In this document: piece by piece, positions 19,199 to 37,330 of the stretch | How positions within the stretch are numbered: position 1 is the stretch's first letter | Layout of the letters: each line of letters begins with the position of its first letter | Assembly: GCA_002731695.1 (NCBI GenBank) | Contig: PCCK01000012.1 | Span: 96,408 to 141,021 of the forward strand | DNA length: 44,614 nucleotides | Reading direction: 5' to 3' | Source: Porticoccaceae bacterium | GTDB lineage: Bacteria; Pseudomonadota; Gammaproteobacteria; Pseudomonadales; Porticoccaceae | Program-made: the position numbers and the translations under genes | Notes under the pieces: generated by a model | What the model was told of the DNA's origin: nothing | What the model saw: the letters and a program-made list of their open reading frames with translations, nothing else | Databases searched by the model: none

Positions 19199-20458
19199 GT
19201 GGATATTTTTGATTTTTCGAACGGCCGAGATGGCTATTATGGCCAATATGGGGGGGTGTTTCTTCCTGAGGTGCTGCATAGCACTATCGAAGAGCTCCTA
19301 CATTGCTTTAGGGAATGTAAAGAAGACCCCAATTTTTGGAGGGAATATGTACGACTGTTACAGAACTATTCTGGTCGTCCAACGCCGGTAACACATCTTC
19401 CAAACCTGTCAAGTCATCTTGGTGGCGCGCAAATTTACGTCAAGCGCGATGATTTAAACCATACTGGTTCACATAAAATGAACAATGTCATGGGACAAGG
19501 ACTATTGTGTCAGAGACTTGGAAAGAAAAAGGTTATCGCAGAGACTGGGGCCGGGCAACATGGATATGCCACGGCTACAATGGCTGCACGCTTTGGTTTT
19601 GATTGTAAGATTTACATGGGAGCTGTTGATGTCGCGCGCCAGCGGCCTAATGTATTTTGGATGGAAAATCTTGGTGCTGAAGTGATAGCAGTGCAAGATG
19701 GGCAAAAAACCCTTAAAGATGCCATTAATGAATGTATGCGTGATTGGGTTTTAAACATGACTGATACTCATTACGTCCTCGGGACAGCCTGTGGACCGCA
19801 TCCCTTCCCAGAAATGGTAAGCTGGTTTCAGTCGATTATCGGCATTGAAGCTCGCGAGCAAATCTTGGCTTTAGCCGGAAAGTTGCCGGATCGGATTTAT
19901 GCCTGTGTCGGAGGTGGATCTAATGCAATCGGTATTTTTCAGGGATTTTTAAATGACGACAATGTTGAATTAGTAGGTTGCGAGGCGGGCGGGTTTGGTG
20001 CGGGCTCTAATATGCACGCAGCTCGTTTGGCATACAACGACGCCTCTATAGGAGTAGCGCAAGGCTATAAGACCTATTTTCTACAGGATCAGCAAGGAAA
20101 TATGCGAGAGACACACTCAATTGCCGCTGGGCTTGATTATATTGGTGTTAATCCTATTTTTTCTTACTTGTGGGAACAGGGTAAAGTGCGTTTTGAGGCA
20201 GCTACCGATTTGGAGGTCAAGGAAGCTTTACGGCTAATCATGCGGACGGAGGGCTTGATTCCCGCGTTAGAGACTACGCATGCGTTTGTAACTGCGATTA
20301 AGGAGGCGCAAACAATGGCGGCTGATCAGATTATCCTAATCAATCAGTCCGGTCGTGGCGATAAGGATATCTTTATGATTGCGGATGCCCTTAATGATCA
20401 ACAATGGAAAAGTTTCATAAAGGATAAAGCAGCCCAGTATCGGCTTGAGGAAAACTGA
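19199..20458 (+). CDS. trpB: Tryptophan synthase beta chain (GTG start)
   Basis: GGVFLPEVL, KRDDLNHTGSHKMNNVMGQ, ETGAGQHGYATA, CVGGGSNAIG. Confidence 0.97.
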   Translation: MDIFDFSNGRDGYYGQYGGVFLPEVLHSTIEELLHCFRECKEDPNFWREYVRLLQNYSGRPTPVTHLPNLSSHLGGAQIYVKRDDLNHTGSHKMNNVMGQGLLCQRLGKKKVIAETGAGQHGYATATMAARFGFDCKIYMGAVDVARQRPNVFWMENLGAEVIAVQDGQKTLKDAINECMRDWVLNMTDTHYVLGTACGPHPFPEMVSWFQSIIGIEAREQILALAGKLPDRIYACVGGGSNAIGIFQGFLNDDNVELVGCEAGGFGAGSNMHAARLAYNDASIGVAQGYKTYFLQDQQGNMRETHSIAAGLDYIGVNPIFSYLWEQGKVRFEAATDLEVKEALRLIMRTEGLIPALETTHAFVTAIKEAQTMAADQIILINQSGRGDKDIFMIADALNDQQWKSFIKDKAAQYRLEEN

Positions 20459-21222
20459 TGGAACTGAATACTTATATTAGAGAACGTCGTCGGGAAAAGG
20501 AACTTCTAATTATGGCGCATGTCGTCTGCGGGTATCCATCTTTTGAGGAAAATATGCAGGCACTAGAAATTATGCAGCAAGCAGGCGTAGATCTGGTAGA
20601 ACTGCAATTTCCCTTTTCTGAACCTAGTGCTGATGGACCAATTTTTGTTCGGGCTAACGAAGAATCACTTAAATCTGGCACCACGATTGACCAGTGCTTT
20701 GCTTTTATGCATGCTGTAACTTCGCGATTTACGTTCAAAGTTTTAATGATGGGATATTATAATACCGTCTTTAAAATAGGTGAAAAACACTTCTTAAAAC
20801 GTTTGTCTGCTGCGGGGGGTGTTGCATTTATCCTTCCTGACCTTCCGATTGAAGAGTCAATCATGCTTCGTCAGGAAGCTTTATTACGCGGTGTCGATCC
20901 GATCATTCTAATGACGCCAACAACTAGTGATAAGCGTTTGGCTGAATTGGGCGCGGCAAGCAGCGGAATGGTTTATGTTGTTGCCCGAAAAGGGGTTACA
21001 GGGACAAAAAGTAATATTGATGCCGGAGTGTTGGCATTGCTTGAGCGGTGTCGCAGGCACACCGATGTTCCACTAGGCGTTGGGTTTGGAATTTCAAATC
21101 GCGACGATTTGCAAGTATTACGTGGAACTGCCGATATTGCCATCATCGGAACAGCAGCATTAAGGATCTGGCAGAATGCAGGTCCTAGTGGTCTAAAAGA
21201 TTTTTTTCATTCACTTGGTTGA
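20458..21222 (+). CDS. trpA: Tryptophan synthase alpha chain
   Basis: ELQFPFSEPSADGPIFVRANEESL, PDLPIEES, VGFGISNRDD; 1-nt overlap with trpB. Confidence 0.96.
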   Translation: MELNTYIRERRREKELLIMAHVVCGYPSFEENMQALEIMQQAGVDLVELQFPFSEPSADGPIFVRANEESLKSGTTIDQCFAFMHAVTSRFTFKVLMMGYYNTVFKIGEKHFLKRLSAAGGVAFILPDLPIEESIMLRQEALLRGVDPIILMTPTTSDKRLAELGAASSGMVYVVARKGVTGTKSNIDAGVLALLERCRRHTDVPLGVGFGISNRDDLQVLRGTADIAIIGTAALRIWQNAGPSGLKDFFHSLG

Positions 21223-21280: not shown

Positions 21281-22030
21281 CTAGTTGATAGTGCTTAAGC
21301 TGTTGCGCCAATCATTTAAAACCTGAAAACGAACCTCTTCAAGTGACGGCAAGGGTCCTAGCTCAAAGGATTCGATACATATCAAGTGGTATCCATTCGC
21401 AGATCTTATGGGTTCGCTCCAACATGGCAATGATTGGGTATTTGAGGCGAGGGATACGATTTTATTTCCGGCTTCTTCACCGAAGAGTTCCTCAAGTCTG
21501 ACGCTTGAAACCTGCTCATAATGATTAAGTAGAGGATTCCGGTCACCGGTCGGAATGATTCCCTGTTTGCTTGCTGACAGATCTTTCAAAGCAGCTTCAT
21601 ATGCATGTCCGCCTCGAGCTGAAATCGCGTATGTTACCTGTCTAAATGATATTAACGAACTTTCTCGGTAATCCTCTTGGTTGAGTTTGAAAAAATTTTG
21701 GAGCTCAAATTCTGAGGGCTCTATATTTGTGGTGACTGTTTTGGTTAGTCCGACTAGACGTTTTTCCAGACTACTTTCGGCGAGCTGTTCATTAACTTGT
21801 TGTGGAGATTCGAAGAGGTCATGTTCCTGTTTTATTGATAATTTATTCTCAATGTTATTTTGTAATCTATGCAATATGCCTGATTCTATTTTCGGGGCTG
21901 CTAAATGTGGCAATTTTGATTGCTGGTCGGCTTGCATGTTTAAGATCAAAAACAAACTAAGGGCTAAACCAGCAATTAAGTAAAGAATTAAAAGCTCGAT
22001 CTTCATGTCTAATGTGCGCTCATTCTCCAC
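21281..22030 (-). CDS. Membrane-anchored PpiC-type peptidyl-prolyl isomerase-like protein
   Basis: N-terminal TM; FRQVTYAISA...GGDRNPLL-like parvulin-style region; ANGYHLICIE. True start may be the Met at 22006. Confidence 0.65.
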   Translation of the reverse strand: MENERTLDMKIELLILYLIAGLALSLFLILNMQADQQSKLPHLAAPKIESGILHRLQNNIENKLSIKQEHDLFESPQQVNEQLAESSLEKRLVGLTKTVTTNIEPSEFELQNFFKLNQEDYRESSLISFRQVTYAISARGGHAYEAALKDLSASKQGIIPTGDRNPLLNHYEQVSSVRLEELFGEEAGNKIVSLASNTQSLPCWSEPIRSANGYHLICIESFELGPLPSLEEVRFQVLNDWRNSLSTIN

Positions 22031-22050
22031 ATATCATTTGTTAATGAATT

Positions 22051-23487
22051 TCATTGTCGGAATACTTTTACTATATCCCCCGCGAGCGGCTCCCCGGCAG
22101 GATACAGGCCGTTTATCACTCTAAGGGTGTCCACATCATTTTTAGAGAGGCTGAATGCCTTCGCTAAGCCGTCAAAAGTGGTATTAGCTGTCGCTTTTAC
22201 GTAGTGGATACGCTGCGGCCTCTGGCCTTCTATTTCGGCTCGCGAAATCGGCCTAAAAGTATTGATGGCCTGCAACAATAATTTATCCTGTTCGGCGAAG
22301 TCGGCACCCTCATTAGTTGCTCCCTCGAATACATATGCGCTCAACTTATAATAAATTACGGCAACGCGGATAATGGACCTTTGTTTTGTGATTTCATCAA
22401 ATCTTGGGATTAGTCCTGTAAACCCTTTCAACTGCGACGGAGTGATGTCCTCTCCATTTTTAATTTCAGAAATGTTCAGTTGATTATACAGATATTCTTC
22501 GGGAGTCTGAGCCGTCCTCGCTAAACGCGACATACTTAGTGTCGATAGCCCATCAGGTTCGCGCCCTGTAGTGGCTGTCGGTGCGGGGCCGCGCGAGTGC
22601 ACCCATCCTTTTGGGTAATCAAATCTAACGCGCCACGTTAAGTCTGAAAAACGCTCTTTAGGTATATCTTTGGCAAGGAAATTTTCACCCCAGATCAAGT
22701 TCTGTGTGAGAGCTCTATATTTTTCAGCGCCGTTTCCACGGGTGCTATCAATCGTTAGGTTTTTTGCACGAGAAACTACTGCTCTTAAACGTGCGTCGTT
22801 TCGAGGGTGTGATGCGAAAACTCCATGATAGGTGGGTCTTATTGCCCCTTTCCTTTTTGCTTGATCTTTTTGAAGCGTTTCGAAATCTTTCATGATCGAT
22901 AACATTGAAATCATTTGATCAACATCGTAACCCAGTTTCGCCATATACTCTGCGCCGCTCTGATCTGCTTCAAGCTCATGATTGCGACCCATTGAACGAA
23001 CTTTTGAATTACCATAGGCCATTCCGGCTTCATATACCTCGTTACTATTAGCTAAAACTGCGGCCACGGTCGATAAGATTTGAGTTGCGGCACCGCTAGT
23101 CGACTGCTTGTTAATATGTCCCCGAGTCACATGTGCTACTTCATGCGCAATTACAGAAACAAGCTGAGCCTCGTTACTAACATAGTTTAAAAGTCCTCGA
23201 TTAATGTAAATGTAGTTATCCGCCGTAGCAAAAGCGTTAAGAGCGGGGTCATCAAGTAAGCTAAAGATAAATTTTTCGTCCGCCATCTCTGATACTGATA
23301 CAACTTGAGCTCCTAAGTTTTCGATGTAGGAAGTAAGCTGTGGGTTCTGAAATAATGGTGTCCGCTTCAATAGTTCCTCATATTGTTTTTGGCCACTAGA
23401 GACAGATAGGCCTGTCTGCGACGCTGCAAATGTTGTGGCAAAGACGGCTACTTTAATAAACAAATTGAAGTTTCGGATTGCAGACAT
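22051..23487 (-). CDS. M48 family metalloprotease with C-terminal LysM-like segment
   Basis: VIAHEVAHVTRGH zinc motif, ELEADQSGAEYMAKLGYD; C-terminal TFDGLAKAFSLSKNDVDTLRVINGL. Confidence 0.93.
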   Translation of the reverse strand: MSAIRNFNLFIKVAVFATTFAASQTGLSVSSGQKQYEELLKRTPLFQNPQLTSYIENLGAQVVSVSEMADEKFIFSLLDDPALNAFATADNYIYINRGLLNYVSNEAQLVSVIAHEVAHVTRGHINKQSTSGAATQILSTVAAVLANSNEVYEAGMAYGNSKVRSMGRNHELEADQSGAEYMAKLGYDVDQMISMLSIMKDFETLQKDQAKRKGAIRPTYHGVFASHPRNDARLRAVVSRAKNLTIDSTRGNGAEKYRALTQNLIWGENFLAKDIPKERFSDLTWRVRFDYPKGWVHSRGPAPTATTGREPDGLSTLSMSRLARTAQTPEEYLYNQLNISEIKNGEDITPSQLKGFTGLIPRFDEITKQRSIIRVAVIYYKLSAYVFEGATNEGADFAEQDKLLLQAINTFRPISRAEIEGQRPQRIHYVKATANTTFDGLAKAFSLSKNDVDTLRVINGLYPAGEPLAGDIVKVFRQ

Positions 23488-23511
23488 TTTTTTACCTAAA
23501 GCATACTTTTT

Positions 23512-24156
23512 TTATTTAAATATTGCCTCTAGCTGTGAGGAAAGTCCTTTGCAGGCATCACTTTTTACCGGCGTCAAAAGCGGGATAGGGGCAATGGCAC
23601 CTATGAGATATGAAGTGCCTTCAGAATCGACTCGAACGCGGGCTACTTCACTTACGTCTGATAGATCCCAAACGATTGCCTCATAGATAGATGCCTTGTC
23701 CCAACTTGCAAAACCAAAACATCCAGCGCCTCCAGGACCTGCTGCACAGCTAATAGAGCCGTTTCTGTCGAGTGTTTCTGTCGAACCGTCTAACCACACC
23801 AAGAATCGTATCCCTCTTTCTGTTATCGCTTTTTTAATTAATGGCTCCTGAATTAGTTGTCGCATGCGAAGTAATCCCTTTGGCGCTGTTCTAGGTTCAA
23901 GCCATGGATATAAGGCGTCAATTAGCCCGCGTTCGGGTAAAACATTTAGGCTTTGCGATCGTAATTTATCGCCTACACAGGCAACAAATTCATCGTCTGT
24001 TTCATAATGTCCCGCATCTCTGCGTCCAAGGAGAGCGATAGTCTCCCCGTTACCCATAGATACTCCTTCATCAAAGCTTCGGTACTCGTCGATAGTTGTA
24101 GTAGTATTACAAGCGGTTAGTATGAAAATTAATAGGAAATTTATTACAAGTGGCAT
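23512..24156 (-). CDS. Predicted lipoprotein, hypothetical
   Basis: Lipobox LTAC after a hydrophobic leader; GGAGCFGFASWDKASIYEAIVWDL. Confidence 0.75.
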   Translation of the reverse strand: MPLVINFLLIFILTACNTTTTIDEYRSFDEGVSMGNGETIALLGRRDAGHYETDDEFVACVGDKLRSQSLNVLPERGLIDALYPWLEPRTAPKGLLRMRQLIQEPLIKKAITERGIRFLVWLDGSTETLDRNGSISCAAGPGGAGCFGFASWDKASIYEAIVWDLSDVSEVARVRVDSEGTSYLIGAIAPIPLLTPVKSDACKGLSSQLEAIFK

Positions 24157-24159
24157 GTG

Positions 24160-24768
24160 TTACGAACTCCCCGATTTTTCTCTGAGATGTCTTTCGACTG
24201 CTGGAATTCTATAGAAATCAAGACTAAGTTTGGCACCAATATCTCGCAGAGCGGCTCTGGTAGCAGAACCTACAGCCTTTTCTTTTTGCAGCATGAATGA
24301 GTCGGACGTTTTTCCATACACCGGCATGAACCAGTTATCGATAAGGTTACCTTCAATGTCAGTAAGCCTAAGATTGTACTTGATCCAAATTTCATAGACG
24401 TTGAGGTAGTTTTGAGAGGGAACTGCGATTTGCGCCTCTACTACTGAGGGATAAATTATAATATCTGGCGACTGTTCTATCTTGTCCTCTGAATCAAAAA
24501 AATCGACTGTGTCGAACAGAGCCGCGAAGGTCTTCCGCATAATATTTTCTTGGGCGCTTCCAATTGATAACTTCGTCTTAGTACTGGGACTTGCAACATA
24601 ATTTGAAAAGTCTGGTGTGAAAATCACGACAGCATGGAAGGCACGCGATGGTGCCAGAAGTTCTGGAAAACTCTCCTCAGAGAGTACTTGTGTAGTTCCA
24701 CCGCATCCTTTGACGAATAACGCCATGCAAATAACTGTAGTAAAAAAAAGTGGATGCTGGCTGCGCAT
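24160..24768 (-). CDS. Predicted lipoprotein, hypothetical
   Basis: Lipobox-like FVKGC; compact alpha/beta-looking domain. Confidence 0.75.
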   Translation of the reverse strand: MRSQHPLFFTTVICMALFVKGCGGTTQVLSEESFPELLAPSRAFHAVVIFTPDFSNYVASPSTKTKLSIGSAQENIMRKTFAALFDTVDFFDSEDKIEQSPDIIIYPSVVEAQIAVPSQNYLNVYEIWIKYNLRLTDIEGNLIDNWFMPVYGKTSDSFMLQKEKAVGSATRAALRDIGAKLSLDFYRIPAVERHLREKSGSS

Positions 24769-24781
24769 ATCGGTACCTAAT

Positions 24782-25771
24782 CTAGTTTAAGCTGTTTAAT
24801 CCAACGAAGGTGCCACCATTGTTATAGCTTAATTCTCTCATGAGTGCTGCAAATTTAATCGCTCCAGTTCCCGGTTCTCTTCCCGCAACAAACTGAACAG
24901 GAAATCCTATCGCATGAATCCTTGCGAGACCCCCAGTCGTGCGATCAATTTGATTAATTTGATTCACCATGTCAACGACCCGCTTGACTGACCGGCCTTG
25001 GAAGTCGTCTCCTAATATATATATGCTTATTTTTCTGTCTCGTTCGTAAAAGTCGCGCAGCGCTCCCTCTATCCCTTCCACGGGGCTGGAATTGCTGAAC
25101 GGAGCCCACTGTTGCAATGTTCTCACGATGTCGTCTCTTTGATCAGGATTATCTGCAATCCACTGACCTCTATAAGCGTCATACATATACTGCCCCATAT
25201 CATTGAGCACTTGAAGTCCTTTTACTTCTGGATATACATCTAAAATGTTGATCATTTCTTTTTGTACTTTTTCCCACGCCCTGCTTTGCATACTGCCAGA
25301 TGTATCTATTACAAAAATAATATACTCACTATCGGCGGGAATTCCGCCTACGAGATCATTTTGACTTCTAGAGCCAGCTTCTTGTAGACGAAGCATTTCC
25401 TCAGACAGCACCTGTTGAACGAGTTTCAGTTGTTCTTTCTCTTGAGCTAATGACTGAGCATTTTTCGTTGCTTGGGCCTTGGCGGAGGCTAATTGCGCTT
25501 GTAAGCGGGCAATTCTCTCCAGAAGTTGTGATAGTTGCTCCTGCTGAGAAACTAGTTGTTCCTCTAACAGGATTGTATCCCCTCTAATATCAAAGAGTTC
25601 AAGCTGAAAAGCCTTGAGTGATCCTACAAGTTGATCCTTCATATCTTCGATGGTGGCTGGATCACCAATCCTTGCGATCACAAGAAGTAGCACAATTGCT
25701 CCGAATCCGCAGCTGATCACGTCGAGGAATGCCAAACTCGCCTCGGAGGTTTGACGCCTTTTAGTTTTCAT
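24782..25771 (-). CDS. Single-TM, coiled-coil von Willebrand factor A (VWA) protein A
   Basis: N-terminal SLAFLDVISCGFGAIVLLLVIAR TM, coiled coil, FVIDTSGSMQSR MIDAS. Confidence 0.9.
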   Translation of the reverse strand: MKTKRRQTSEASLAFLDVISCGFGAIVLLLVIARIGDPATIEDMKDQLVGSLKAFQLELFDIRGDTILLEEQLVSQQEQLSQLLERIARLQAQLASAKAQATKNAQSLAQEKEQLKLVQQVLSEEMLRLQEAGSRSQNDLVGGIPADSEYIIFVIDTSGSMQSRAWEKVQKEMINILDVYPEVKGLQVLNDMGQYMYDAYRGQWIADNPDQRDDIVRTLQQWAPFSNSSPVEGIEGALRDFYERDRKISIYILGDDFQGRSVKRVVDMVNQINQIDRTTGGLARIHAIGFPVQFVAGREPGTGAIKFAALMRELSYNNGGTFVGLNSLN

Positions 25772-25798
25772 GTGTCGACCTCGAATTGATTATGCATT

Positions 25799-26857
25799 TT
25801 ATGGCCAGTCCCGAGAGGGGGCGATAAAGGCCCCTTGGGTATTTAAAGCGAGTTGCCAATACAAGGCTGCAGCCTCTGGGTCGCCCTCCATAGGAAATAA
25901 TATTGTGTTCACCGGGATTCCATTGGGTATCTTTTTGATTGCATTTTGAAAGTATTTTCTTCTCTGTTCACCGTCAACCATCGAGGAGGAAGGTACCCGC
26001 GCACCCTGTGTTGGCAGACCATCGGTAAGAATAAAAATATTGTCCGGTGATTTGTCGAAATTATTTATGCTTACCACCGCATTCTCTAAGCTTGTGCCGG
26101 CGGTAGGTGTGAAAGCGCGCAGACCGTCTACAGCCCGTTCAATTGATAGTGAGTCGGCGGCGTCAAGCCATTCTCCATCGGTGCCGTTAATGGCCGCCGA
26201 GACCGACGTATTAAAGATGTATAACTGAAATCTGCTACTGGCAGGGAGCTGTGCTAACAACCATTCCACTGTACTCATTGTCCAAACCCATTTTGGGGCT
26301 GATTGACGTTGTTGGATATCCATATTGCGTCGAATAATCGCATTAACTACATTATCCGCTAGCATGCTGGCCGAACCGTCTACAAATATCAAAACGCGCT
26401 CACCACCCAGTTTCAGACCCGTTAAGTACTGTCGGTTACCATCCCCGACAAATTCTCTAACTTTGTCACCATATTCGGTATCTTCTAGCTCTGCGGTTTC
26501 TTTTTCGAGGATTTCTACTTGACGCCGAAGTTTATCGATTTCTTTTTGGGGATCGGTTTGAGTACTATTTTCTGCCTCTTGTAATTCGGTGATAACCCGT
26601 CTTGATAGTCCTTGTGCTTCGACAACTTTGGTTTCCAAGACCTCAAGGCTATTTAGGAGTGCTGCTTTTTGTTCTTCGGCAACTAGAAGATCTTTTTTCA
26701 ACAACTCCATTTCTGCTGCAGCGTTCGTGTTTGGGTCTTGCAACTCTGACGCGCTGTGCCTAAATATCAAAAAAAGGAGTGTAACGGCGCCAAACCCACA
26801 TGCCATGATGTCCAAGAAGGACAAACTTAGCGCGATATTTCGGCGTTGTTTAGGCAT
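25799..26857 (-). CDS. Single-TM, coiled-coil VWA protein B
   Basis: SLSFLDIMACGFGAVTLLFLIFR TM, coiled coil, IFVDGSASML and ILTDGLPTQG MIDAS-like motifs. Met at 26857 preferred (track start 26869). Confidence 0.9.
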   Translation of the reverse strand: MPKQRRNIALSLSFLDIMACGFGAVTLLFLIFRHSASELQDPNTNAAAEMELLKKDLLVAEEQKAALLNSLEVLETKVVEAQGLSRRVITELQEAENSTQTDPQKEIDKLRRQVEILEKETAELEDTEYGDKVREFVGDGNRQYLTGLKLGGERVLIFVDGSASMLADNVVNAIIRRNMDIQQRQSAPKWVWTMSTVEWLLAQLPASSRFQLYIFNTSVSAAINGTDGEWLDAADSLSIERAVDGLRAFTPTAGTSLENAVVSINNFDKSPDNIFILTDGLPTQGARVPSSSMVDGEQRRKYFQNAIKKIPNGIPVNTILFPMEGDPEAAALYWQLALNTQGAFIAPSRDWP

Positions 26858-28142
26858 TAACCACCTCAATCAGTGTGAGCTGGTGTTTACCAATATGGAG
26901 AGATTCGCCGGGCAGTACTTGGCTTGGGAGAAGAGCATAAAGGTGCTCTTTTTTGTAAGTGATCAAGAGATTTCCGTCTTCCAAAGATAAAACTAAATCA
27001 GCATTGGTATGCTGCTTGCCGGTGATGAATAACCGATCTCGTGAAATCGAGAAGCTCAGGATAGAGCTTAGAGGCCATGCGCATCTGTCGTGCAGAAGGT
27101 GTGTCGCAATCCGTCCTCGAGATTTGTTTTTCTGGATGGACGCCACATATATAGTTTGATCGCTTATTTGCGAGAGTAAAACCTGGTTTAGCCTTTGAAG
27201 AGGTTTTTCCTCTCGTTGCGCTTGCGTCGCAAGTCGCATGCATTTTCTTTCAATAAAAGTGTCCTCTGGCATTTTTACTTCTCTTAATGCTGGACATAAT
27301 GATTTTAGCAGGCCACTTTGAGGCGTCAAACATAATTGCTCAGTCTCGTAATCCTTCAAAGCGGCTTTTAATACCTCAAATTTTGGGTCGAGCATTTGTT
27401 GAATGTGTTTGAGATCTAAATGCAGTGTGAAGTTTGAGTCAGGAGACTTGATATCGATGATAGACTCTGAACTCGTTTTGAATTTGTCTATTATGCTTGG
27501 CAGCTGATTGAATAAGTTCTGTTGAGCAACTGCAGAGTGCATTGGATCGTAACGCGTGGCGAGGATAGAACGCTCTGAGATATACCTTGCGCAATTTTTC
27601 AATAATTGAAGCGCACCGATGTCTGAAATTACCTCAGAGTTTAGAATCTGCAGGTATTGTCCTGTGTTCTCTAGGTGAGATATAACCGTTTGATGCCCAT
27701 GTAGTTGGATTATCGCGCGGTGATAGTCTTCAGCGTATAAAAGAGCGCTTTCAATGACCCCACAGGTTTTGGCTGGCACTGCCTCGATCAGGCCTAGCAG
27801 AAGCTGAAGTCGGCGGTCATTGAAGCTGCTAGGGATCGCAACCAAGAGCTCAGGTGAGTCGATCTTTGAAAGCAATTCGGAAAGTTGGAAAAAAGAAAGA
27901 TCTGCATGGTGTCGCGCCCAGCATGTTGGCCTATCCAAAGGTTTTTCATCCAACTGGTCCCAGTGTCTTGTGTAGCTGTTCTGCGGCTCCAACCATGCAA
28001 GACGTCTCGCTTCTTCTCCTGCAATCAGCCCCTCCTCAGAAATATGGACATAAGCTGGTGATTGGTACTTGCGTTCATCCTCGATAAACATTTGAAGGCT
28101 CTGTCCATTAAAAACGACCGTTGCCAGTGTCATACTATGCAC
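26850..28142 (-). CDS. Divergent Hsp70/actin-fold-like ATPase domain protein
   Basis: SPAYVHISEEGLIAGEEARRLAWLEPQNSYTRHW...LLVAIPSSFNDRRLQLLLGLIEAVPAKTCGVIESALLYAED resembles Hsp70 N-terminal blocks. Confidence 0.55.
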   Translation of the reverse strand: MHSMTLATVVFNGQSLQMFIEDERKYQSPAYVHISEEGLIAGEEARRLAWLEPQNSYTRHWDQLDEKPLDRPTCWARHHADLSFFQLSELLSKIDSPELLVAIPSSFNDRRLQLLLGLIEAVPAKTCGVIESALLYAEDYHRAIIQLHGHQTVISHLENTGQYLQILNSEVISDIGALQLLKNCARYISERSILATRYDPMHSAVAQQNLFNQLPSIIDKFKTSSESIIDIKSPDSNFTLHLDLKHIQQMLDPKFEVLKAALKDYETEQLCLTPQSGLLKSLCPALREVKMPEDTFIERKCMRLATQAQREEKPLQRLNQVLLSQISDQTIYVASIQKNKSRGRIATHLLHDRCAWPLSSILSFSISRDRLFITGKQHTNADLVLSLEDGNLLITYKKEHLYALLPSQVLPGESLHIGKHQLTLIEVVNA

Positions 28143-28937
28143 CTAGACCTTGAGGAAACGCAGTAGTTGGGTTTCACAGTGACGTTGTGAATCATGGACG
28201 AGGCGTTCTTGTATTAATTGGAGTTGGTGCATAAAAAACATTACTACCATGCTGATTAGTAGCGCGACAAATGTGGAATTGAACGCAACTCCAAGGCTAC
28301 TAGTAACGCCAGCGATATTTCCCTGCATGGCTTCATGGGCTTGACCTAGTGCTGCACCGATCCCTCTCACAGTACCAATAAAGCCAATCGACGGTATCGC
28401 CCAAGTAATGTAACGGATCATCGACAACTCTGAGTCAAGGCGCTCACTCTCAGTATCACATACTGCAGCCACTGCGTCGTTTGCAGACTGAATGTTACCA
28501 GTCATTTGGAAGCGCATGAGCGCTGACTGTAACGCCCTTGGGAGCAATAGGTTACGTTGTTCTTCTGCCAATGATTCAAGGGCTTTTGTAAATTGATCTA
28601 CGTCTTCGACCAGTATCCTTGATCCCTCCCTAACATTGATTAACGCGCTGCTTAACAAAGCTTGTTCTTTGTATACGGACCGAGTTTTGAACCCCATGAT
28701 AGCGAAGGCCCAAACCATTAGTATAAAACAGGATTCCTGCTCTAGATCCTTGATTACGACAAAGATAGAGCGTGGCACCACATAGTTTCCGTCTACCGAA
28801 GCCCGTTCCACTTGTTGACGGATAATGACATCAGCATTAGGTCTGACCAAAGTCACGAAAATTGTATGTATGACTATAAACGTTAGTAATAATGTAACTA
28901 ATTGGTAGTACAACTCGTTAGTATCTCTTTTCATCAT
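28143..28937 (-). CDS. MotA/TolQ/ExbB family proton-channel-like protein (about 4 TM)
   Basis: YITWAIPSIGFIGTVRGIGAALGQA...GVTSSLGVAFNSTFVALLISMVVMF matches the MotA_ExbB pattern. Confidence 0.9.
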   Translation of the reverse strand: MMKRDTNELYYQLVTLLLTFIVIHTIFVTLVRPNADVIIRQQVERASVDGNYVVPRSIFVVIKDLEQESCFILMVWAFAIMGFKTRSVYKEQALLSSALINVREGSRILVEDVDQFTKALESLAEEQRNLLLPRALQSALMRFQMTGNIQSANDAVAAVCDTESERLDSELSMIRYITWAIPSIGFIGTVRGIGAALGQAHEAMQGNIAGVTSSLGVAFNSTFVALLISMVVMFFMHQLQLIQERLVHDSQRHCETQLLRFLKV

Positions 28938-28959
28938 TTAATCCAATTCTCTGGCAGTT

Positions 28960-29184
28960 TTAAATATCTGCAGGCAAGGGCACAGGAAAATCTTCTGATA
29001 TTTCCTCAGAAGGCTTGAACTCATCTTTATTTATGTTCTCATCGATCCTTTTTTCTTTTACCGTGCTACTTTTTGTCTCTGATTCAAGCGCTTCTTTTTG
29101 GTCTTTTCTTTCCTCATCAGAGTCGGCTACGTAGGAGAAAAAAATCAATGTTGGGATAGTAAGTGACAAAAGAATTCTGATCAT
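28960..29184 (-). CDS. Small exported acidic/Lys-rich protein, hypothetical
   Basis: Signal-like MIRILLSLTIPTLIFFSYVA then charged low-complexity tail; 4-nt overlap with upstream gene. Confidence 0.6.
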   Translation of the reverse strand: MIRILLSLTIPTLIFFSYVADSDEERKDQKEALESETKSSTVKEKRIDENINKDEFKPSEEISEDFPVPLPADI

Positions 29185-31265
29185 TTTTCTTCAGTGATCC
29201 TATCCACATATCTAGCAATCCGAAAGCCTAGATCAATTCTCGGATCGTTTCCATGATCTCGGTAAGTGAGCCGTAATTCTGACCTTGATCCCATTGCCCA
29301 GCTAGCACCTCTGATCACATGTCGGGTCCCTCCTTCGGGGCCTTTGAGATCTATCAAGGGTTCCCCTCGGTGGGGTTGCAGATCATAATAATCGTTCACC
29401 CACTCGGCTACATTTCCACCTATGTTATAAAGTCCCTTCTTATTCGAGGGGAAAGTCCCTATTGGAGCAGAGACTGGGTACCCATCTGTGTAGCTAAGTA
29501 ATTTAAATCGTACTAGTTTTGCAGCTGCTATATCAGCATAATTGCCAACCACTCGATCAGGAGGAAAGCGGTCATTTTCCCACGGATAAATTTGAGCAGA
29601 CCCGTGAGGACCAGTCCTCGCCACCCACGACCATTCTGCCTCGGTCGGAAGACGGTATCCGTTCGACGACCAATCTATTCTCTCGGTTTGATCTGTATTT
29701 ATTAGATAGAAGGGTGACAACAGATCTTGTTTGCTAAGCCAGTTACAAAATCTTATAGCTTCTTCCCAAGAAACATTGACCACGGGTTGCTCTTCCATGT
29801 CAAGGGTCTTTCCGGAAATTGCCGATGAGCTATGGTTTGTTTTCCACATGCGAAATTGTCGATTTGAGACCTCGGTTTCCCCAATGTAAAAGGGTCTTTT
29901 GAGTGTTACAGCGCGTTCGACTTCATTTGCTCGTCGTCCAGGTTGCCTACGGGGTGCTCCCATGAGGAACGGCGCCTTTGGACGCATTAGTAGTAACTGT
30001 ATGTCAGCAACAGTCTTTATTCGATTGGGACGTGTTGACCAATATGCCGCTTCCTCCGTAAGGAGGGTGACTGAGAGCGCTTGCTGCTGTGATGGTTGCG
30101 GTAATACCTTAAATGTTTCAGTTCGATACCCTTTCTGCTCTATTCTGAGTTCATGTTGCCTTGATGGCAACCGAAGTGTTTGTGATCCGGTACTGAAAAA
30201 CTTGTTGTCAACGTATACTTTTGCTCCTTCGGGGGATATGGAAAGTGCAATTTCTCCGATGTCCTCTTGAAGAGTTAACTGCAACTTAAGTACTTGGTCG
30301 GAGGCAACAGTAAACCCATGCAGTTTTTTGATATATCCCTCCAATATCATCTCGATTTTGTGGCGTTGTTTGGGACGAACCGGTATCTTGAGTGGCGAAA
30401 TTCCCTGAAAATTACCGTTGAGTATTATGCTTGCGCCAGTTGGAACAGTCTCTAGCTGCAGATACCCGTCCGCTGTGACTAGGGGAATTGGCGGGTATAC
30501 CTGCGTTTCACCGGCAGTGATACTTAACGTACCCGACCAATCATTGAATCCGCTTTTTTTAAGCAAGATGGAACTACCTGACTGTAAAACCTCAGCAGTG
30601 GCAGGCGTATTACCTACGAGTTTATCATCTATCCAAAGCTCAGCGGCATTTGGTACAGAGTCAATTTTCAGCGTTCCCCAGCCGGGTTGCAGCTCAGCTT
30701 CAAGGGTTTGTGTTTCACCAAGACCAATGATGTCAACGTCATATTTTGAATCGAGGTACCTGGCTTTGGAGAGGACGATTTGATGAGTGCCTTTTCTCAA
30801 TCCCTTAATAACTCCAGGTAGGATAGCGACAGATGGCGCACCATCTACCAGCGCAGTTATTTCCTTTAACGTTGATTCAACCTTTAATTCTCCTGGAAGG
30901 GGTTCCAGTACTATGTTCAACTGTTGTTCATTATTTGATAATACTTCAAGGTCCATATCGTGTTGTTTATAACCGGTGGCAGTTACTCTGACCTCATATT
31001 TTCCCGGGAGTAAAAGATAATTTGATCCGATTCTAAACGATACGCCTGACAACTCGATGCGGCTGTCTAGGGGAGTGGTGGTAATGATTACTGGACTTGC
31101 TGATGCAAGGTAGAGCATCACAAGTGAGCCTGCTGCGAGGGTAATAGCTAAGACCCACAAACCCACGGAAGTTTTACCCCTATGCTTTTTGGTTTCACCG
31201 TCGAGAGGGGAAAATTTTGTGGGCTTGAGGTTCTCTGTAGGCTCCTCTTGATCTGTTGAGTTCAT
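29181..31265 (-). CDS. TM-anchored protein with about five PEGA repeats and a C-terminal FGE-sulfatase/SUMF1-like domain
   Basis: PEGA-like repeats (e.g. GWGTLKIDSVPNAAELWIDDKLVGNTP, GYLQLETVPTGASIILNGNFQGISP); YIGETEVSNRQFRMW, YRLPTEAEWSWVAR, GNVAEWVNDYY, RGASW..LGFRIAR. Confidence 0.93.
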   Translation of the reverse strand: MNSTDQEEPTENLKPTKFSPLDGETKKHRGKTSVGLWVLAITLAAGSLVMLYLASASPVIITTTPLDSRIELSGVSFRIGSNYLLLPGKYEVRVTATGYKQHDMDLEVLSNNEQQLNIVLEPLPGELKVESTLKEITALVDGAPSVAILPGVIKGLRKGTHQIVLSKARYLDSKYDVDIIGLGETQTLEAELQPGWGTLKIDSVPNAAELWIDDKLVGNTPATAEVLQSGSSILLKKSGFNDWSGTLSITAGETQVYPPIPLVTADGYLQLETVPTGASIILNGNFQGISPLKIPVRPKQRHKIEMILEGYIKKLHGFTVASDQVLKLQLTLQEDIGEIALSISPEGAKVYVDNKFFSTGSQTLRLPSRQHELRIEQKGYRTETFKVLPQPSQQQALSVTLLTEEAAYWSTRPNRIKTVADIQLLLMRPKAPFLMGAPRRQPGRRANEVERAVTLKRPFYIGETEVSNRQFRMWKTNHSSSAISGKTLDMEEQPVVNVSWEEAIRFCNWLSKQDLLSPFYLINTDQTERIDWSSNGYRLPTEAEWSWVARTGPHGSAQIYPWENDRFPPDRVVGNYADIAAAKLVRFKLLSYTDGYPVSAPIGTFPSNKKGLYNIGGNVAEWVNDYYDLQPHRGEPLIDLKGPEGGTRHVIRGASWAMGSRSELRLTYRDHGNDPRIDLGFRIARYVDRITEEK

Positions 31266-31345
31266 ATCTTCGCCTGGGCTGCAATGATTGCTGACGACTT
31301 GTGGTCTACTTCATACACTGACCACACAAGATCGCATCACTGGAT

Positions 31346-32746
31346 TTATATTGTCTCACTACAACGAATGTCAATGGGCACATTATTTGAGCCGATGTCG
31401 ACCGTAAATTCTATCAAAATGTCTCGAAATCCGGTCCTGGCGCCAAGAATGCTGTATTTTCCGGGCCGCAAGGACACTGTTTTGCGCGCAAAAACCCCAA
31501 GTTTTGAAACGCGAAGCAAGGTCACCTCAGTTTGACCATCTGACTGAAGAATAACCTCGGTGGCAGTTTGTGATCGCTCAAGTAATTTCTCTAGATCTCT
31601 AATTTGGCCCGATAACTTCGGTGTATTAACACCGTTATCTGCGATTCCAAGTAGATTATCTAGTAAGACTTTTGCTTCAATATAGGTCTTTTGATTAGCC
31701 AAGGCTAGCGGAGATGCAAGTACAGCGTTAGTTTGGCGATCCATATCACTGCGAATTAAAGCATTGATCTTTTTGACTCGTGGTTGGACTAGAGTGTCGT
31801 CCAGGAGGATAAGGTCGTTGTAGATGTGCAATGCCTCGGCCCATTTTTCGTCCGATTCCAGCTTGCTGGCTAGTTCCATTTTTTTTGTTACTTCGAAATG
31901 TTGTTGTCGCGTCTCAAGTTGTAACAGTGCCTTGTCGACGGATATTTTGCTCTCATCCAATGTCCTTGCTGATAAAAATGCATTCCTAGCGCCTTGAAAC
32001 TGATTTTTTCCGAGTTTATCCCATCCAAGACTCATCAGTGACTGAAAATCTCGACCCTGAATTTTTTTGCTAACTTTTTTAAGCGCTGTTCTCGCTGGAG
32101 TGAAATTATCATCGAGTTCTAGTGCTAATTTATAGTAGCGCTCGGCCAAGTTTAATTTACCAGAATCTTGATGTTTAGTTGCATTTTGGAAGTGTTCAAG
32201 GACCTCCGGCAGTGATTCACTCCTCTTTAACAGTGAGGTGGCTTGAAGATTTTCAGGTGCTATTGTGATTGCAGTTTGAGCATGTTCTCTGGCCTCATAC
32301 ACCTCTCCTTGAAGGATGCTTTTCAATCCACTTTTTATGCTTGCTTCGAGCGTGGCCTCAGCGGTTATCTCCAGCTCTCTCAGTCTGTCAAGTGCGAGAT
32401 TATAACTTACCATCGCTTGTTGATATTTTGTATCCAAGTATAGTTGGTCACCAATTTCAATTAACTTAAAAGACTCAAAGAATACACTTTCCCCCCATTT
32501 TGTGACTCCGCGAGAATCTAATGAGTCCCTCGTTGTGATTATTTGAGCCAGCAACTCTTGCGAAGCAAGGCGATACTTTTGCTTTTCAGCTAACTGAGAG
32601 GGAGTAAGCTGCGGTACTGGTAGGTTGCTTTCAATTAGATTTTCTTTAATTGTGAATAACGGTTCTTCTATCACCCTTGGGAGTACAAAAGCTATACATA
32701 TCGAAACAGATATTAGCAGCAAGAGTGTTATCTGTTTTTTATTCAT
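31346..32746 (-). CDS. TPR protein with C-terminal PEGA-like domain, N-terminal signal anchor
   Basis: Repeated helical TPR-like units (YQQAMVSYNLALDRL, NLAERYYKLALELDDNFTPA); C-terminal VTLLRVSKLGVFARKTVSLRPGKYSILGARTGFRDI. Met at 32746 preferred (track start 32773). Confidence 0.8.
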   Translation of the reverse strand: MNKKQITLLLLISVSICIAFVLPRVIEEPLFTIKENLIESNLPVPQLTPSQLAEKQKYRLASQELLAQIITTRDSLDSRGVTKWGESVFFESFKLIEIGDQLYLDTKYQQAMVSYNLALDRLRELEITAEATLEASIKSGLKSILQGEVYEAREHAQTAITIAPENLQATSLLKRSESLPEVLEHFQNATKHQDSGKLNLAERYYKLALELDDNFTPARTALKKVSKKIQGRDFQSLMSLGWDKLGKNQFQGARNAFLSARTLDESKISVDKALLQLETRQQHFEVTKKMELASKLESDEKWAEALHIYNDLILLDDTLVQPRVKKINALIRSDMDRQTNAVLASPLALANQKTYIEAKVLLDNLLGIADNGVNTPKLSGQIRDLEKLLERSQTATEVILQSDGQTEVTLLRVSKLGVFARKTVSLRPGKYSILGARTGFRDILIEFTVDIGSNNVPIDIRCSETI

Positions 32747-33953
32747 CTTCCGGCGTTCTCCGCTCCTCAGCATAGATCTGTAGTAATAAGGCCTGCCATT
32801 GTTGGTACTTAGCCTGTACGTTACCAGAGAGGGTCACGGTTCGGTCTTCGAGTTCTATTATCTCAGGTGCCAGAGTTGTTTCGAGACTGGAACCCATTTC
32901 AGCCACCGACTCATTATAACTCGCCGCCCTCTGTTTTTTTTCAAGACCCGATTTCACTAACAGGCCTCCTGCCCCTGCTGTGGTGGTACTTGCTAAGCGG
33001 CCCGCGCTGGAGTCACTCTCAAGACGACCATATATTCCTGCCACGATGGTTCCAATTCCCGCTATTATGCGTTGGTTTCCTTGTTTCTGCAGTTGTCTTG
33101 CTTTCACAACCGAGTCATAGGATGCTCGCCTAAAATCCTGATAGGGAATGTGCATTCGCCGCGAAAAACTGTCGTAGAATTCTTGCATCCGGTCTATGTA
33201 AAGGTGATCTCGATCTCTAATTCGGCGCACTCTCTCTAAGAGTGGATCTGCGTCTGCTGGCAGACGAACTATCTGTAATTTACCTTCCTTGTCTGTCCGT
33301 GTGTATGGGTTAAAAGCTTCTGGAGAAAACTGTTGAGCGAAACGCATTTCCGATAGTTTTCGCAGATCGAGCGCGCGTTTTTCTCCATAACTTTCGTATT
33401 GTCGAAGAAGCTCATTCGCTACGCTGATGTATAGATTTTGAAACGGATCACCGGCACCCTTCCTTCTTCTGTCATATGCATATTTTCCGACAGTCGTCCG
33501 GTATTTTTTGGTAAACCATGTAAGGTCTGCGCTGTCTCGAGCCACAATCTCCATTGCCAAGGTTTCACCGTCCGATTGTAAAATAGTACCTTGAATGTAT
33601 AAATCCATTATTGCGTCTTTGTTAGGGATGACTCGAACAGGTCCCCACGCACCGCTCTTTTCAAGTACTCTCAATAGCTGGGTCGAAAAATATACTGTTT
33701 CTGCCAACCGGACTTCGGGGAAGACAGTGTCATCCTCGTCAGTGAGATTAAGACCGTCGTCGAACGCAACTATTCCCACATCCAGTAGCGCTTGCACCGG
33801 AATTGATTTTGTGGGTGAAAGGAGGGTGATTGGGGTCGACGAAGTGATCTTATCGATAGCCGCTTGTGAGCTTGCGGCCATACAAAACGTTACGGCGATG
33901 ACAATCTTCCAAAGATTGGTCCCATTTCCGGTAGGAAAAATGTGGTTCTCCAT
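32739..33953 (-). CDS. Exported hypothetical protein
   Basis: Signal-like FCMAASSQAA; 404-aa ORF; VGIVAFDDGL...; no firm family. Confidence 0.75.
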   Translation of the reverse strand: MENHIFPTGNGTNLWKIVIAVTFCMAASSQAAIDKITSSTPITLLSPTKSIPVQALLDVGIVAFDDGLNLTDEDDTVFPEVRLAETVYFSTQLLRVLEKSGAWGPVRVIPNKDAIMDLYIQGTILQSDGETLAMEIVARDSADLTWFTKKYRTTVGKYAYDRRRKGAGDPFQNLYISVANELLRQYESYGEKRALDLRKLSEMRFAQQFSPEAFNPYTRTDKEGKLQIVRLPADADPLLERVRRIRDRDHLYIDRMQEFYDSFSRRMHIPYQDFRRASYDSVVKARQLQKQGNQRIIAGIGTIVAGIYGRLESDSSAGRLASTTTAGAGGLLVKSGLEKKQRAASYNESVAEMGSSLETTLAPEIIELEDRTVTLSGNVQAKYQQWQALLLQIYAEERRTPEDE

Positions 33954-33956
33954 ATT

Positions 33957-34649
33957 TTATTTTCGTCCTTTGGCTCGGCGATACTCTTCCCATAATTTCT
34001 CACGAAGAATCGGGTCAGTCTCCTGCGACGCAGCTTCTCGTATTTGTCTTTCGACAATGTCATCACCTTGGCCTTCACCAATATCGTCAGGAATCTGGGT
34101 AATTGTAGCATTGCTGGAATCTTTATTTTTGGAGGGAATTGATTCTACGTCTCCCAAAGATTCGGCCTCACCCGCCCCCTGATCTGCGCGTTCTGCGATG
34201 GGGTTTCCGTCCTCCTCCAGTTCCTCATACATCGGCCGATTTGAGTCAGATGCCAGAGTTCTGCTTCCCATCGGGTCAAGCACATCTATACCGGACTCGT
34301 CAGCAGCTCCGCCTAAACGACTGTCAAAATCATCTAGCGAATTTTCGAGGTCTGAGTCCAACTCCTCCAATGAGGGCGCCTTACCATTATCGACAGGGCC
34401 GCCGGCAGCTGATTCGCCTGAACTAGTTGTAGACGATCCGCTTGGCATGGAAACTCCCCCAGGAATACTTACACTGCCACTCGGAATATTAATTGTGGTT
34501 CCTCCAGAAGACGAGCTTGAGTTGGAGGGGATTGGGACAACAGAGTTACAGGCAAGTAAACTGAGGCACAGAAAAATGCCCCCTAACGAGTCTATGGAAC
34601 GAAGTAATTGTTGAAAAATTGTTTTTAAACTTAAAAAGGGTGTATTCAT
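33957..34649 (-). CDS. Ser/Gly/Asp-rich low-complexity predicted lipoprotein
   Basis: Lipobox LLAC; SSSSSGGTTINIPSGSVSIPGGVSMPSGSS; acidic middle and charged C-terminus. Confidence 0.75.
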   Translation of the reverse strand: MNTPFLSLKTIFQQLLRSIDSLGGIFLCLSLLACNSVVPIPSNSSSSSGGTTINIPSGSVSIPGGVSMPSGSSTTSSGESAAGGPVDNGKAPSLEELDSDLENSLDDFDSRLGGAADESGIDVLDPMGSRTLASDSNRPMYEELEEDGNPIAERADQGAGEAESLGDVESIPSKNKDSSNATITQIPDDIGEGQGDDIVERQIREAASQETDPILREKLWEEYRRAKGRK

Positions 34650-34698
34650 GATTTACCTCTTGGCATAAAACTGTGGCACAAGGCTAATTATCAATGCC

Positions 34699-35916
34699 TT
34701 ATCGTGCCAGGAATATTTTATGAGTAGACTCCTCTGGGTTACCCTCATTAAGACGGGGCCTGTATCGACTTTTCTGGATAGATTGACGTATCGACCGCAT
34801 CTCTTCTTCAGATAGGTCCTTGGGAGGGTCAATAAATTGTATATCTCTTGCTCGACCTCTTTTTGTGATGAGCGCGGAAACTTCTAGTACCTTTTGAGTT
34901 TTCGTTTTGCTTTTTTCCGGGAGGTTGAACTCAATTTTTTGTGGCTCGGAAAAAAAAAGTGATTGTACATCTTTAGATACACTCTCATCTAAAAGTGTTT
35001 GGAATGCAAGGCTGTAGGCTTTGATGGCCGCGTGGCTTTGGCCAAAGATAAGGTACCAATCAGCCAACTGAGCAATAGCATCAACCTGACCTAGAAGATC
35101 CGCTACAGGCTGGTTGGATAGAGATTCAACTCTCCTGATTAAGGCGGCTTTACCACGCCGATAATATGTTAGCCCGGCGGCAGAGCGGCCCGTAGTTTGT
35201 GCGCTGGAGTTAGTAGATATTTCATAAGTTGTTTCTGTTGGCAGGCCATTCTGATCTACATAGGTTGCCACGAGGTATTGCACCGCGGCGAGTCTTTGGT
35301 AGTAAATCGGTGCTTTTGCATCTTCTATGGGAATGCTTTGCTCAATTACTCTCGACATCCGTTGTGATATGAGGTCTGCAGCAACGATATAGTCAAGTCC
35401 ACCTCGTCCAGGATTGGCTTCGTAGCGAGCTATCTGCCAGTAAAGAATCTTGTCTAGTGTCTCAAGGATACGGGGATCCAAAGCACCATAGTTGTTTTTC
35501 CCGAGTTGGTATATCGAGTCCATTGCTTTTTGAGCTGATTCTGTGTCTCCTAAGATTGTATCCAGGTCGGCGAGCAAAAAAAGATAGGGCGTTTGAGAGA
35601 TGCTGTGCAGTCCGAAGTTTACCCGCTCTATCTGCATACCTCGTTTGAGAGCACGTTGTGCACCTGAGAAGTTTTCATCGTTCATTAATGCCTGCCCTAG
35701 CCCCATATATAGTTCCGATAACTGGATGGAGAAAGCATTACTATTAGCCTCAGCGCGTTCAATCGCCTCTTGATAGTCTCGCAGGACTTCTTCAGCATTC
35801 AGCGCTCCGTTTACATTCGGTAACAGAGTTATCGCTGTACCGGCTGCCGCTATGCTAAAATACTTCATGAGAGATTGTTTTAGCTTTCGCGAGCAGAGGT
35901 AGGGGGGACGAGGCAT
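34699..35916 (-). CDS. TPR protein with TonB C-terminal-like domain
   Basis: TPR-like helices; KVLEVSALITKRGRARDIQFIDPPKDLSEEEMRSIRQSIQKSRYRPRLNEG resembles a TonB CTD. True start may be at Met-18 (MKYFSIAAAG). Confidence 0.75.
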   Translation of the reverse strand: MPRPPYLCSRKLKQSLMKYFSIAAAGTAITLLPNVNGALNAEEVLRDYQEAIERAEANSNAFSIQLSELYMGLGQALMNDENFSGAQRALKRGMQIERVNFGLHSISQTPYLFLLADLDTILGDTESAQKAMDSIYQLGKNNYGALDPRILETLDKILYWQIARYEANPGRGGLDYIVAADLISQRMSRVIEQSIPIEDAKAPIYYQRLAAVQYLVATYVDQNGLPTETTYEISTNSSAQTTGRSAAGLTYYRRGKAALIRRVESLSNQPVADLLGQVDAIAQLADWYLIFGQSHAAIKAYSLAFQTLLDESVSKDVQSLFFSEPQKIEFNLPEKSKTKTQKVLEVSALITKRGRARDIQFIDPPKDLSEEEMRSIRQSIQKSRYRPRLNEGNPEESTHKIFLAR

Positions 35917-36214: not shown

Positions 36215-37330
36215 TTGAATATAAATTCATTCATCCCCCCACGAAGGACTCTTATGGGTCCCGGTCCATCTGACGTTAGTGAACGAGTTCTAAGTGCCAT
36301 GGCCCGGCCCACTATAGGGCACTTAGATCCATTATTTATAGAAATGATGGACGAAATAAAAACACTTTTGCAGTATGTTTTTCAGACTAAAAATCAGCTT
36401 ACGTTTGCGGTATCTGCTCCTGGTTCAGCAGGCATGGAATGCTGTTTCGCAAATCTGGTTGAGCCCGGCGATGAAGTTATAGTCTGCCAAAATGGAGTTT
36501 TTGGAGGACGTATGCGTGAAAATGTAGAGCGCTGCGGTGGCTCGGCAATTATGGTTCAGGACGAGTGGGGGAGCGCTGTTGATCCGACAAAACTTGAAGA
36601 AGTCCTGAAGCGAAATCCTAACGCGGTCATCGTGGCTTTTGTTCATGCAGAAACTTCTACGGGGGTTCAATCCGATGCTAGATCTTTAGTCCGATTGGCC
36701 CATGAATACGATTGTATAACGATAGTTGATACCGTAACCTCGTTATCGGGGACACCTCTATTTGTCGACGATTGGGAAATCGATGCGATTTATTCGGGGT
36801 CTCAAAAGTGTCTGTCGGCTCCACCTGGTCTATCTCCTGTAAGTTTTAATGAGCGCGCGGCTAAAAAGATTCGTGCCAGAAAAAGTAGAGTCCAAAGTTG
36901 GTTTCTGGATTTAAATCTGGTTATGAATTATTGGGGCGGGGAAGGTAAGAGAACTTACCATCACACGGCACCGGTTAATTGTTTGTATGGGTTGCATGAG
37001 TCTCTTGTCATGGTGCAGGAGGAGGGTCTAGAGGCAGCTTGGAAACGGCACAAAGACAATTATCTTCGACTTCATGATGGTCTTATGTCTCTAGGGATTG
37101 AATTTGTCGTAAACGAGGCTGATCGACTACCTCAGTTAAACGCAGTGTCAATACCAGAGGGGGTTAATGATATGGCAATTCGTAGCCGTTTGCTTGAAGA
37201 ATATAATCTGGAAATAGGCGCCGGATTAGGTACTCTATCTGGTAAGGTCTGGCGTATCGGGCTTATGGGACACGCAAGCACCCCCAAGAATGTTGATTTC
37301 TGTATTAGCTCATTACGTTCGGTGTTATGA
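36215..37330 (+). CDS. Class V PLP-dependent aminotransferase (alanine/serine-glyoxylate aminotransferase-like), TTG start
   Basis: MGPGPSDVSERVLSAMARPTIGHLDP, TGVQSDARSL, VDTVTSLSGTPLFVDDWEIDAIYSGSQKCLSAPPGL. Confidence 0.93.
   Translation: MNINSFIPPRRTLMGPGPSDVSERVLSAMARPTIGHLDPLFIEMMDEIKTLLQYVFQTKNQLTFAVSAPGSAGMECCFANLVEPGDEVIVCQNGVFGGRMRENVERCGGSAIMVQDEWGSAVDPTKLEEVLKRNPNAVIVAFVHAETSTGVQSDARSLVRLAHEYDCITIVDTVTSLSGTPLFVDDWEIDAIYSGSQKCLSAPPGLSPVSFNERAAKKIRARKSRVQSWFLDLNLVMNYWGGEGKRTYHHTAPVNCLYGLHESLVMVQEEGLEAAWKRHKDNYLRLHDGLMSLGIEFVVNEADRLPQLNAVSIPEGVNDMAIRSRLLEEYNLEIGAGLGTLSGKVWRIGLMGHASTPKNVDFCISSLRSVL

Follow-up and report, generated by a model that had tools for sequence, protein, structure and literature searches.

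A conserved fourteen-gene block of a Porticoccaceae bacterium, probably encoding an additional proton-driven envelope motor with paired VWA proteins

The window analyzed here is the whole stretch of 44,614 bases taken from the 2.35-Mb assembly of a Porticoccaceae bacterium (GCA_002731695.1, contig PCCK01000012.1, code G000:C12). Positions 21281-35916 are filled by 14 minus-strand open reading frames (ORFs) with gaps of -35 to +80 bp, in agreement with the same-strand run with short gaps or overlaps reported in a first-pass annotation, which counted 15 ORFs although its own list names 14. From the TPR end of the block to its PpiC-like end, the intergenic distances are 49, 3, -35, 80, -4, 22, 0, -20, 27, 13, 3, 24 and 20 bp. 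Here we present the gene inventory of the block, its conservation and a proposed mechanism, according to which the core genes probably encode an extra, dedicated trans-envelope motor that is driven by protons and distinct from the bacterium's own Tol and Ton machinery.

The genes are listed below with the number of loci holding them. The locus set comprises the best 80 of at least 538 relatives confirmed in a one-genome-per-species scan for VWA-A, together with loci from further genomes; counts refer to the 75 loci that extend 9 kb or more upstream of VWA-A.

34699..35916, minus strand: TPR, a TPR protein whose relatives include some with a C-terminal TonB_C domain (weak TPR matches; TonB_C at 2e-7 in locus L111; 52/75 loci); accessory
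33957..34649, minus strand: SG, a Ser/Gly-rich lipoprotein (lipobox LLAC; 73/75 loci); core
32739..33953, minus strand: EXP, an exported protein with a PelC/TolB-N/LptE-like domain and a Gly-rich helical hairpin (72/75 loci); core
31346..32773, minus strand: TP, one N-terminal transmembrane (TM) helix and TPR repeats (TPR_2 at 7.4e-8; hydropathy; 73/75 loci); core
29181..31265, minus strand: PF, one TM helix, PEGA repeats and a domain like formylglycine-generating enzyme (FGE) (PEGA 9.5e-38; FGE-sulfatase 2e-37); core
28960..29184, minus strand: p74, a small exported peptide, here with the tail PLPADI (alignment; tail scan); core
28143..28937, minus strand: MOT, a channel of the TolQ/ExbB/MotA family (MotA_ExbB, PF01618, 4.1e-14; pore threonines Thr189 and Thr222); core motor
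26850..28142, minus strand: ACT, an Hsp70 nucleotide-binding-domain fold with a degenerate FHA-like C-terminus (profile, model, Foldseek); accessory
25799..26869, minus strand: VWA-B, N-terminal TM helix with Asp20, coiled coil and VWA domain (metal ion-dependent adhesion site, MIDAS, D164/S166/S168/T259/D283); core, rotor candidate
24782..25771, minus strand: VWA-A, N-terminal TM helix with Asp17, coiled coil and VWA domain (MIDAS D156/S158/S160); core, rotor candidate
24160..24768, minus strand: L2, a lipoprotein (invariant Cys22; 59/75 loci); accessory
23512..24156, minus strand: L214 gene, a Cys-containing lipoprotein (invariant Cys16; 58/75 loci); accessory
22051..23487, minus strand: M48 metalloprotease (PF01435 at 6.3e-30; 53/75 loci); accessory
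21281..22030, minus strand: PpiC-like protein, one N-terminal TM helix (Rotamase_2 at 4e-5, below cut-off; 8/75 loci, mainly Porticoccaceae/SAR92)

Judged by comparison of sequences, the block is a conserved cassette and no chance run of genes. VWA-A, MOT and EXP were sought in 274 gammaproteobacterial genomes (for MOT, at E < 1e-30). VWA-A was found in 20 of these, two being counted from its weaker match to VWA-B alone, on short contigs; the genomes with MOT were exactly the same 20, and EXP, a protein unrelated to these, was present in 19, of which 18 belong to the common set. Under independence, the probability of such overlaps would be about 1e-30 (MOT/VWA-A) and 5e-25 (EXP), values that serve as illustrations and not as true P values because the genomes are related. 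Co-conservation, the lack of which would have refuted the first-pass proposal, was strong, and it extends to gene order: SG, EXP, TP, PF, MOT, VWA-B and VWA-A are all present in this order in 71 of the 75 well-covered loci. There are four exceptions: L040 has MOT relocated to the end, in L042 MOT is on another contig and no EXP was found, and the fetched stretches of L103 and L119 contain the motor half but no SG-EXP-TP-PF half. The nearest named relatives are Porticoccaceae/SAR92 genomes, with a VWA-A identity of 71% at best among the matches listed.

The same core set is also present outside Gammaproteobacteria, in loci L161-L170 from a second class of Pseudomonadota (Zetaproteobacteria is our unproven guess). 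These loci, as well as the distant gammaproteobacterial loci L045 and L047, hold the core only, among unrelated flanking genes. Because distant cassettes hold the core alone, ACT, L2, the L214 gene, M48 and TPR are regarded as additions; from their distribution, the PpiC-like gene and, more broadly, the genes for M48, both small lipoproteins and the TPR-TonB_C protein are lineage-specific. Within the family of the window, MOT is kept in 33 of 37 genomes, among them some that have a listed size of 1.3-2 Mb, and not all of these are complete. G185 is the only genome of the 274 with EXP but without a match to MOT or VWA-A; its remnant (L210:10373-13174) consists of EXP with an internal stop and a fragmented TP, with no motor gene within the 20 kb fetched, a decay consistent with the cassette having been lost as a whole.

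Regarding the motor genes, the first-pass description of MOT as a MotA/TolQ/ExbB-like channel is well founded. MOT scores 52.9 bits against MotA_ExbB (cut-off 22.9), aligns to the TolQ/ExbB proteins of its own genome (hhalign E 3.7e-6) and carries Thr189 (GTVRG) and Thr222 (FNST) at the TolQ pore threonine positions, both kept in at least 97% of 98 sequences. The N-termini of VWA-A and VWA-B are alike, with basic residues, SFLDxxxCGxGA and a single TM helix, and profile comparison finds the two helices homologous to each other (99.7%). The Asp within this helix is invariant in both alignments. Coiled-coil matches cover residues 38-147 of VWA-A and 46-150 of VWA-B. In the window's own copies the VWA domains give weak matches, whereas family members show them clearly: VWA_2 is found in 27 of 31 VWA-B family members and DxSxS is invariant in the VWA-A family. 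MIDAS residues are conserved in both domains. PF02472 (ExbD/TolR) gave no match on VWA-A or VWA-B and none near the block, and the three exbD/tolR genes of the genome are all on other contigs (C6, C45, C103), where they are accompanied by separate channel genes of the Tol and Ton types. Because of the TM Asp, the position, the MOT partner and the lack of exbD/tolR in the block, the VWA pair would be better read as an ExbD/TolR-like rotor within a TolQ-like pentamer than as the separate effectors that had been suggested.

A motor of this kind has already been published as a prediction. Williams-Jones et al. 2025 (PMC12204202) describe a family of VWA proteins with a TM tether, which usually occur as heterologous pairs and are encoded beside tolQ without tolR or exbD; their conserved Asp helix is predicted to turn inside a TolQ pentamer, as a 5:2 motor with a Thr ring and, in the text of that paper, without an assigned function. 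A published AlphaFold 3 model in the same source has this arrangement for a matching gene set. As in these TPH-vWA motors, the TolQ-family gene of the window stands beside two different VWA genes, the cluster is without tolR/exbD, and the VWA TM Asp and the pore threonines are present; every tested feature matches, the comparison being with the motors as described there, Idiomarina sequences aside. The gene set that the first-pass annotation did not recognize is therefore known as to its TolQ and paired VWA core, whereas the wider cassette goes beyond it: PEGA is not mentioned in the text of the paper, and an FGE-like protein, lipoproteins, a tailed peptide and an Hsp70-like gene are not discussed in its motor section. 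What the present analysis appears to add is the cassette around the motor, with the tailed peptide and the tiers of accessory genes, although a figure of that paper may show further neighbours. No later paper on such motors was found in a search that did not reach subscription literature.

The peptide p74 is recognizable by its end. A scan for C-terminal [LFIMV]PxD[IM], a pattern that presets Pro and Asp, returned 97 matches among 11,423 ORFs of 111 loci; 96 of them are immediately followed on their strand by MOT, or by ACT in two rearranged loci, and the remaining one lies at a contig edge (L104). Of the 96 tails, 95 end in Ile. Tails off the pattern were seen in L051 (LHADI) and L171 (YPVDI), and all loci with MOT have a p74 gene whose tail is of this or a closely similar form. 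The tail scan recovers the peptide in the most distant loci, which the p74 profile misses. The body is variable and in distant loci amounts to about a hydrophobic segment with a tail of 15-20 residues. From this conservation the tail looks like a docking motif; hypothetically, its Asp might bind the metal site of a VWA head, much as integrin binds a ligand Asp. A DNA pattern for the TTY-type tail, which excludes the window's own PLPADI spelling, gave two other matches in the genome and one in a control. SG of many loci has a P-x-D-I motif just before its conserved C-terminal helix, which resembles the end of the p74 tail, and the two motifs possibly share a binding partner.

The C-terminal helix of SG is conserved in the alignment as DDIVxRQIREAAxxExDPxLREKLWxEYRxxK. 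EXP is a lipoprotein in most relatives; its AlphaFold 2 model (predicted local distance difference test, pLDDT, 80; low confidence in the Gly-rich middle of the long helical hairpin) contains a PelC/TolB-N/LptE-like domain, with PelC (4e-4) as the best and TolB (9e-4) as a further Foldseek match, and profile searches of PDB with EXP and L2 gave nothing usable. PF has the PEGA and FGE-like domains ascribed to it, with four PEGA repeats found by Pfam and not five, and no PEGA was found by Pfam in the 475-aa protein TP, for which it had also been claimed. Since an alignment of 87 sequences has no Cys among the columns that reach 95% conservation, and hence no conserved catalytic Cys pair, PF is probably not a formylglycine-generating enzyme.

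The accessory ACT (430 aa) was rightly called Hsp70/actin-like: its profile matches PDB Hsp70 at 5.8e-5, and its model (pLDDT 91.3) matches Hsp70 structures at about 1e-14 in Foldseek, the fold spanning residues 1-310. In a comparison with Hsp70/DnaK, the glycine-rich phosphate-binding motifs were not seen among its conserved columns, and an FHA-like tail replaces the substrate domain; this C-terminal domain is recognized as FHA in two relatives (best 1.8e-12), and the window copy is, by eye, without the usual FHA residues. ACT is absent between MOT and VWA-B in loci L211 and L214 of the same family and from distant cassettes, so that this cytoplasmic protein is regarded as accessory. Among the remaining accessory products, the M48 protease stands as annotated, the PpiC-like assignment is weak, and the TonB-like C-terminus claimed for the TPR protein is found in a relative, the window copy having no TonB match.

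The proposed mechanism draws on the observed co-conservation, gene order, domains, invariant Asp, Thr and MIDAS residues and conserved tail, whereas its stoichiometry, heterodimer, rotation and contact partners are predicted. A MOT pentamer would enclose a VWA-A/VWA-B dimer, the N-terminal helices of which would carry the proton-binding Asp, and proton flow would turn or pull this dimer. Coiled coils of roughly 100 residues, some 15 nm long if they are helical, could let both VWA heads reach through the periplasm, where these may act, via their metal sites, on an EXP and SG lipoprotein assembly at the outer-membrane side. TP and PF would serve as scaffolds anchored in the inner membrane, and the tail of p74 as a docking peptide. 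One proton-driven trans-envelope assembly, as envisaged in the first-pass annotation, remains the best reading in view of the co-conservation, with the VWA proteins no longer as effectors and ACT as an accessory. The weakest step is the role; the favored possibility, itself less likely than not, is that the motor uses force to remodel or mobilise lipoprotein assemblies of the outer membrane, following a Tol-like logic. It is rather doubtful that the cassette represents a class of trans-envelope machine not described before, with a VWA heterodimer that is driven by protons and turns in a TolQ-like pentamer, while its metal-binding heads grip the acidic PxDI tail of p74 and pass force to an outer-membrane lipoprotein ring.

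Several observations count against this motor. The MOT profile had no match in PDB at 0.01; the VWA TM helices compared with ExbD/TolR helices by hhalign gave 15% and 2%, which is not significant, and the rotor parallel is drawn from position, Asp and partner. In G213, the MOT gene and the VWA genes are on different contigs, and no phenotype was found in any paper of the literature searched.

With Tol-Pal and Ton (TolQR, ExbBD), the cassette shares the MotA_ExbB channel family, the pore threonines and coupling to the proton motive force (PMF), whereas its VWA proteins replace TolR/ExbD and its core is without TolA, Pal and a TonB-dependent receptor. The TonB_C domain in relatives of the TPR protein could indicate a Ton-like import energizer, with this protein opening an outer-membrane receptor; however, the TPR gene is missing from distant cassettes, its window product has no strong TM helix by hydropathy, no receptor gene is in the block and ExbB/ExbD loci are elsewhere in the genome, which makes such an energizer very improbable. 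A secretion or gliding-type machine, with the motor powering export or movement on surfaces in the manner of GldLM with GldK/GldN or of AglRQS-Glt, is rather unlikely. A PMF motor, long periplasmic partners and an FGE-like domain protein are common to GldK/GldL/GldM and the cassette, and GldK is the best NCBIfam match of PF, but at 95 bits against a cut-off of 350 and within the common FGE domain; type IX genes and any SprA/PorV-like or adhesin gene are missing from the cassette. The AglRQS-Glt system of Myxococcus combines one TolQ-like protein with two different TolR-like proteins (AglR with AglQ/AglS), as does the cassette motor with its two different partners, but we know of no VWA rotor in it. 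The PelC-like lipoprotein fold of EXP also favors a machine of this type; PelC forms rings.

Products that share one conserved operon but not one assembly (e.g., a motor and a separate lipoprotein group) would be in line with L103 and L119, which have the motor half and no SG-EXP-TP-PF half nearby; both halves are nevertheless in order in nearly all loci and were lost and decayed together in G185, and separate products are improbable. A role in phage defence or biological conflict, as in Zorya or in systems of the VWA-MoxR type, is scarcely credible. MOT is a MotA-family protein with a ZorA profile match (0.0028), and VWA, PEGA and FHA domains occur in published conflict systems too, but the ZorA match reaches 14.7 bits only, no other Zorya part and no MoxR is in the block, MOT is retained across the family even in small genomes, and VWA-A has no plasmid or viral match. 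The defence-system reading was dropped, PADLOC matches being weak only. The preferred trans-envelope motor would be an extra one carried by marine gammaproteobacteria, the SAR92 clade among them, and of a type in which the rotor itself bears the force-bearing head; its core is defined and its peptide tail is short and conserved, so that this tail, like the Asp and the metal site of the VWA proteins, can be probed directly.

The block has trpBA (19199-21222) on one side and an aminotransferase V gene (36215-37330) on the other, both on the plus strand. Because these flanks recur at the cassettes of loci L211 and L214, the site looks ancestral in the window's family. The TTG start listed for VWA-B (26869) is probably 12 bases too early, with the true start at 26857, because Met5 is conserved; TP possibly starts near 32746. 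A promoter and terminator scan gave fewer sites than shuffled sequence. A phage or plasmid origin was dropped, as no VWA-A relatives were found among plasmid and viral sequences and the PHROGs match of PF is confined to its FGE-like domain. A metagenome-assembled genome record titled Klebsiella pneumoniae (L115) holds a full marine-type cassette, and its label is probably wrong. In the same genus as the window, G559 has a second, divergent copy of the core on contig C31 (L212:2570-10058; EXP, TP, PF, MOT, VWA-B and VWA-A) in addition to a main-type MOT copy.

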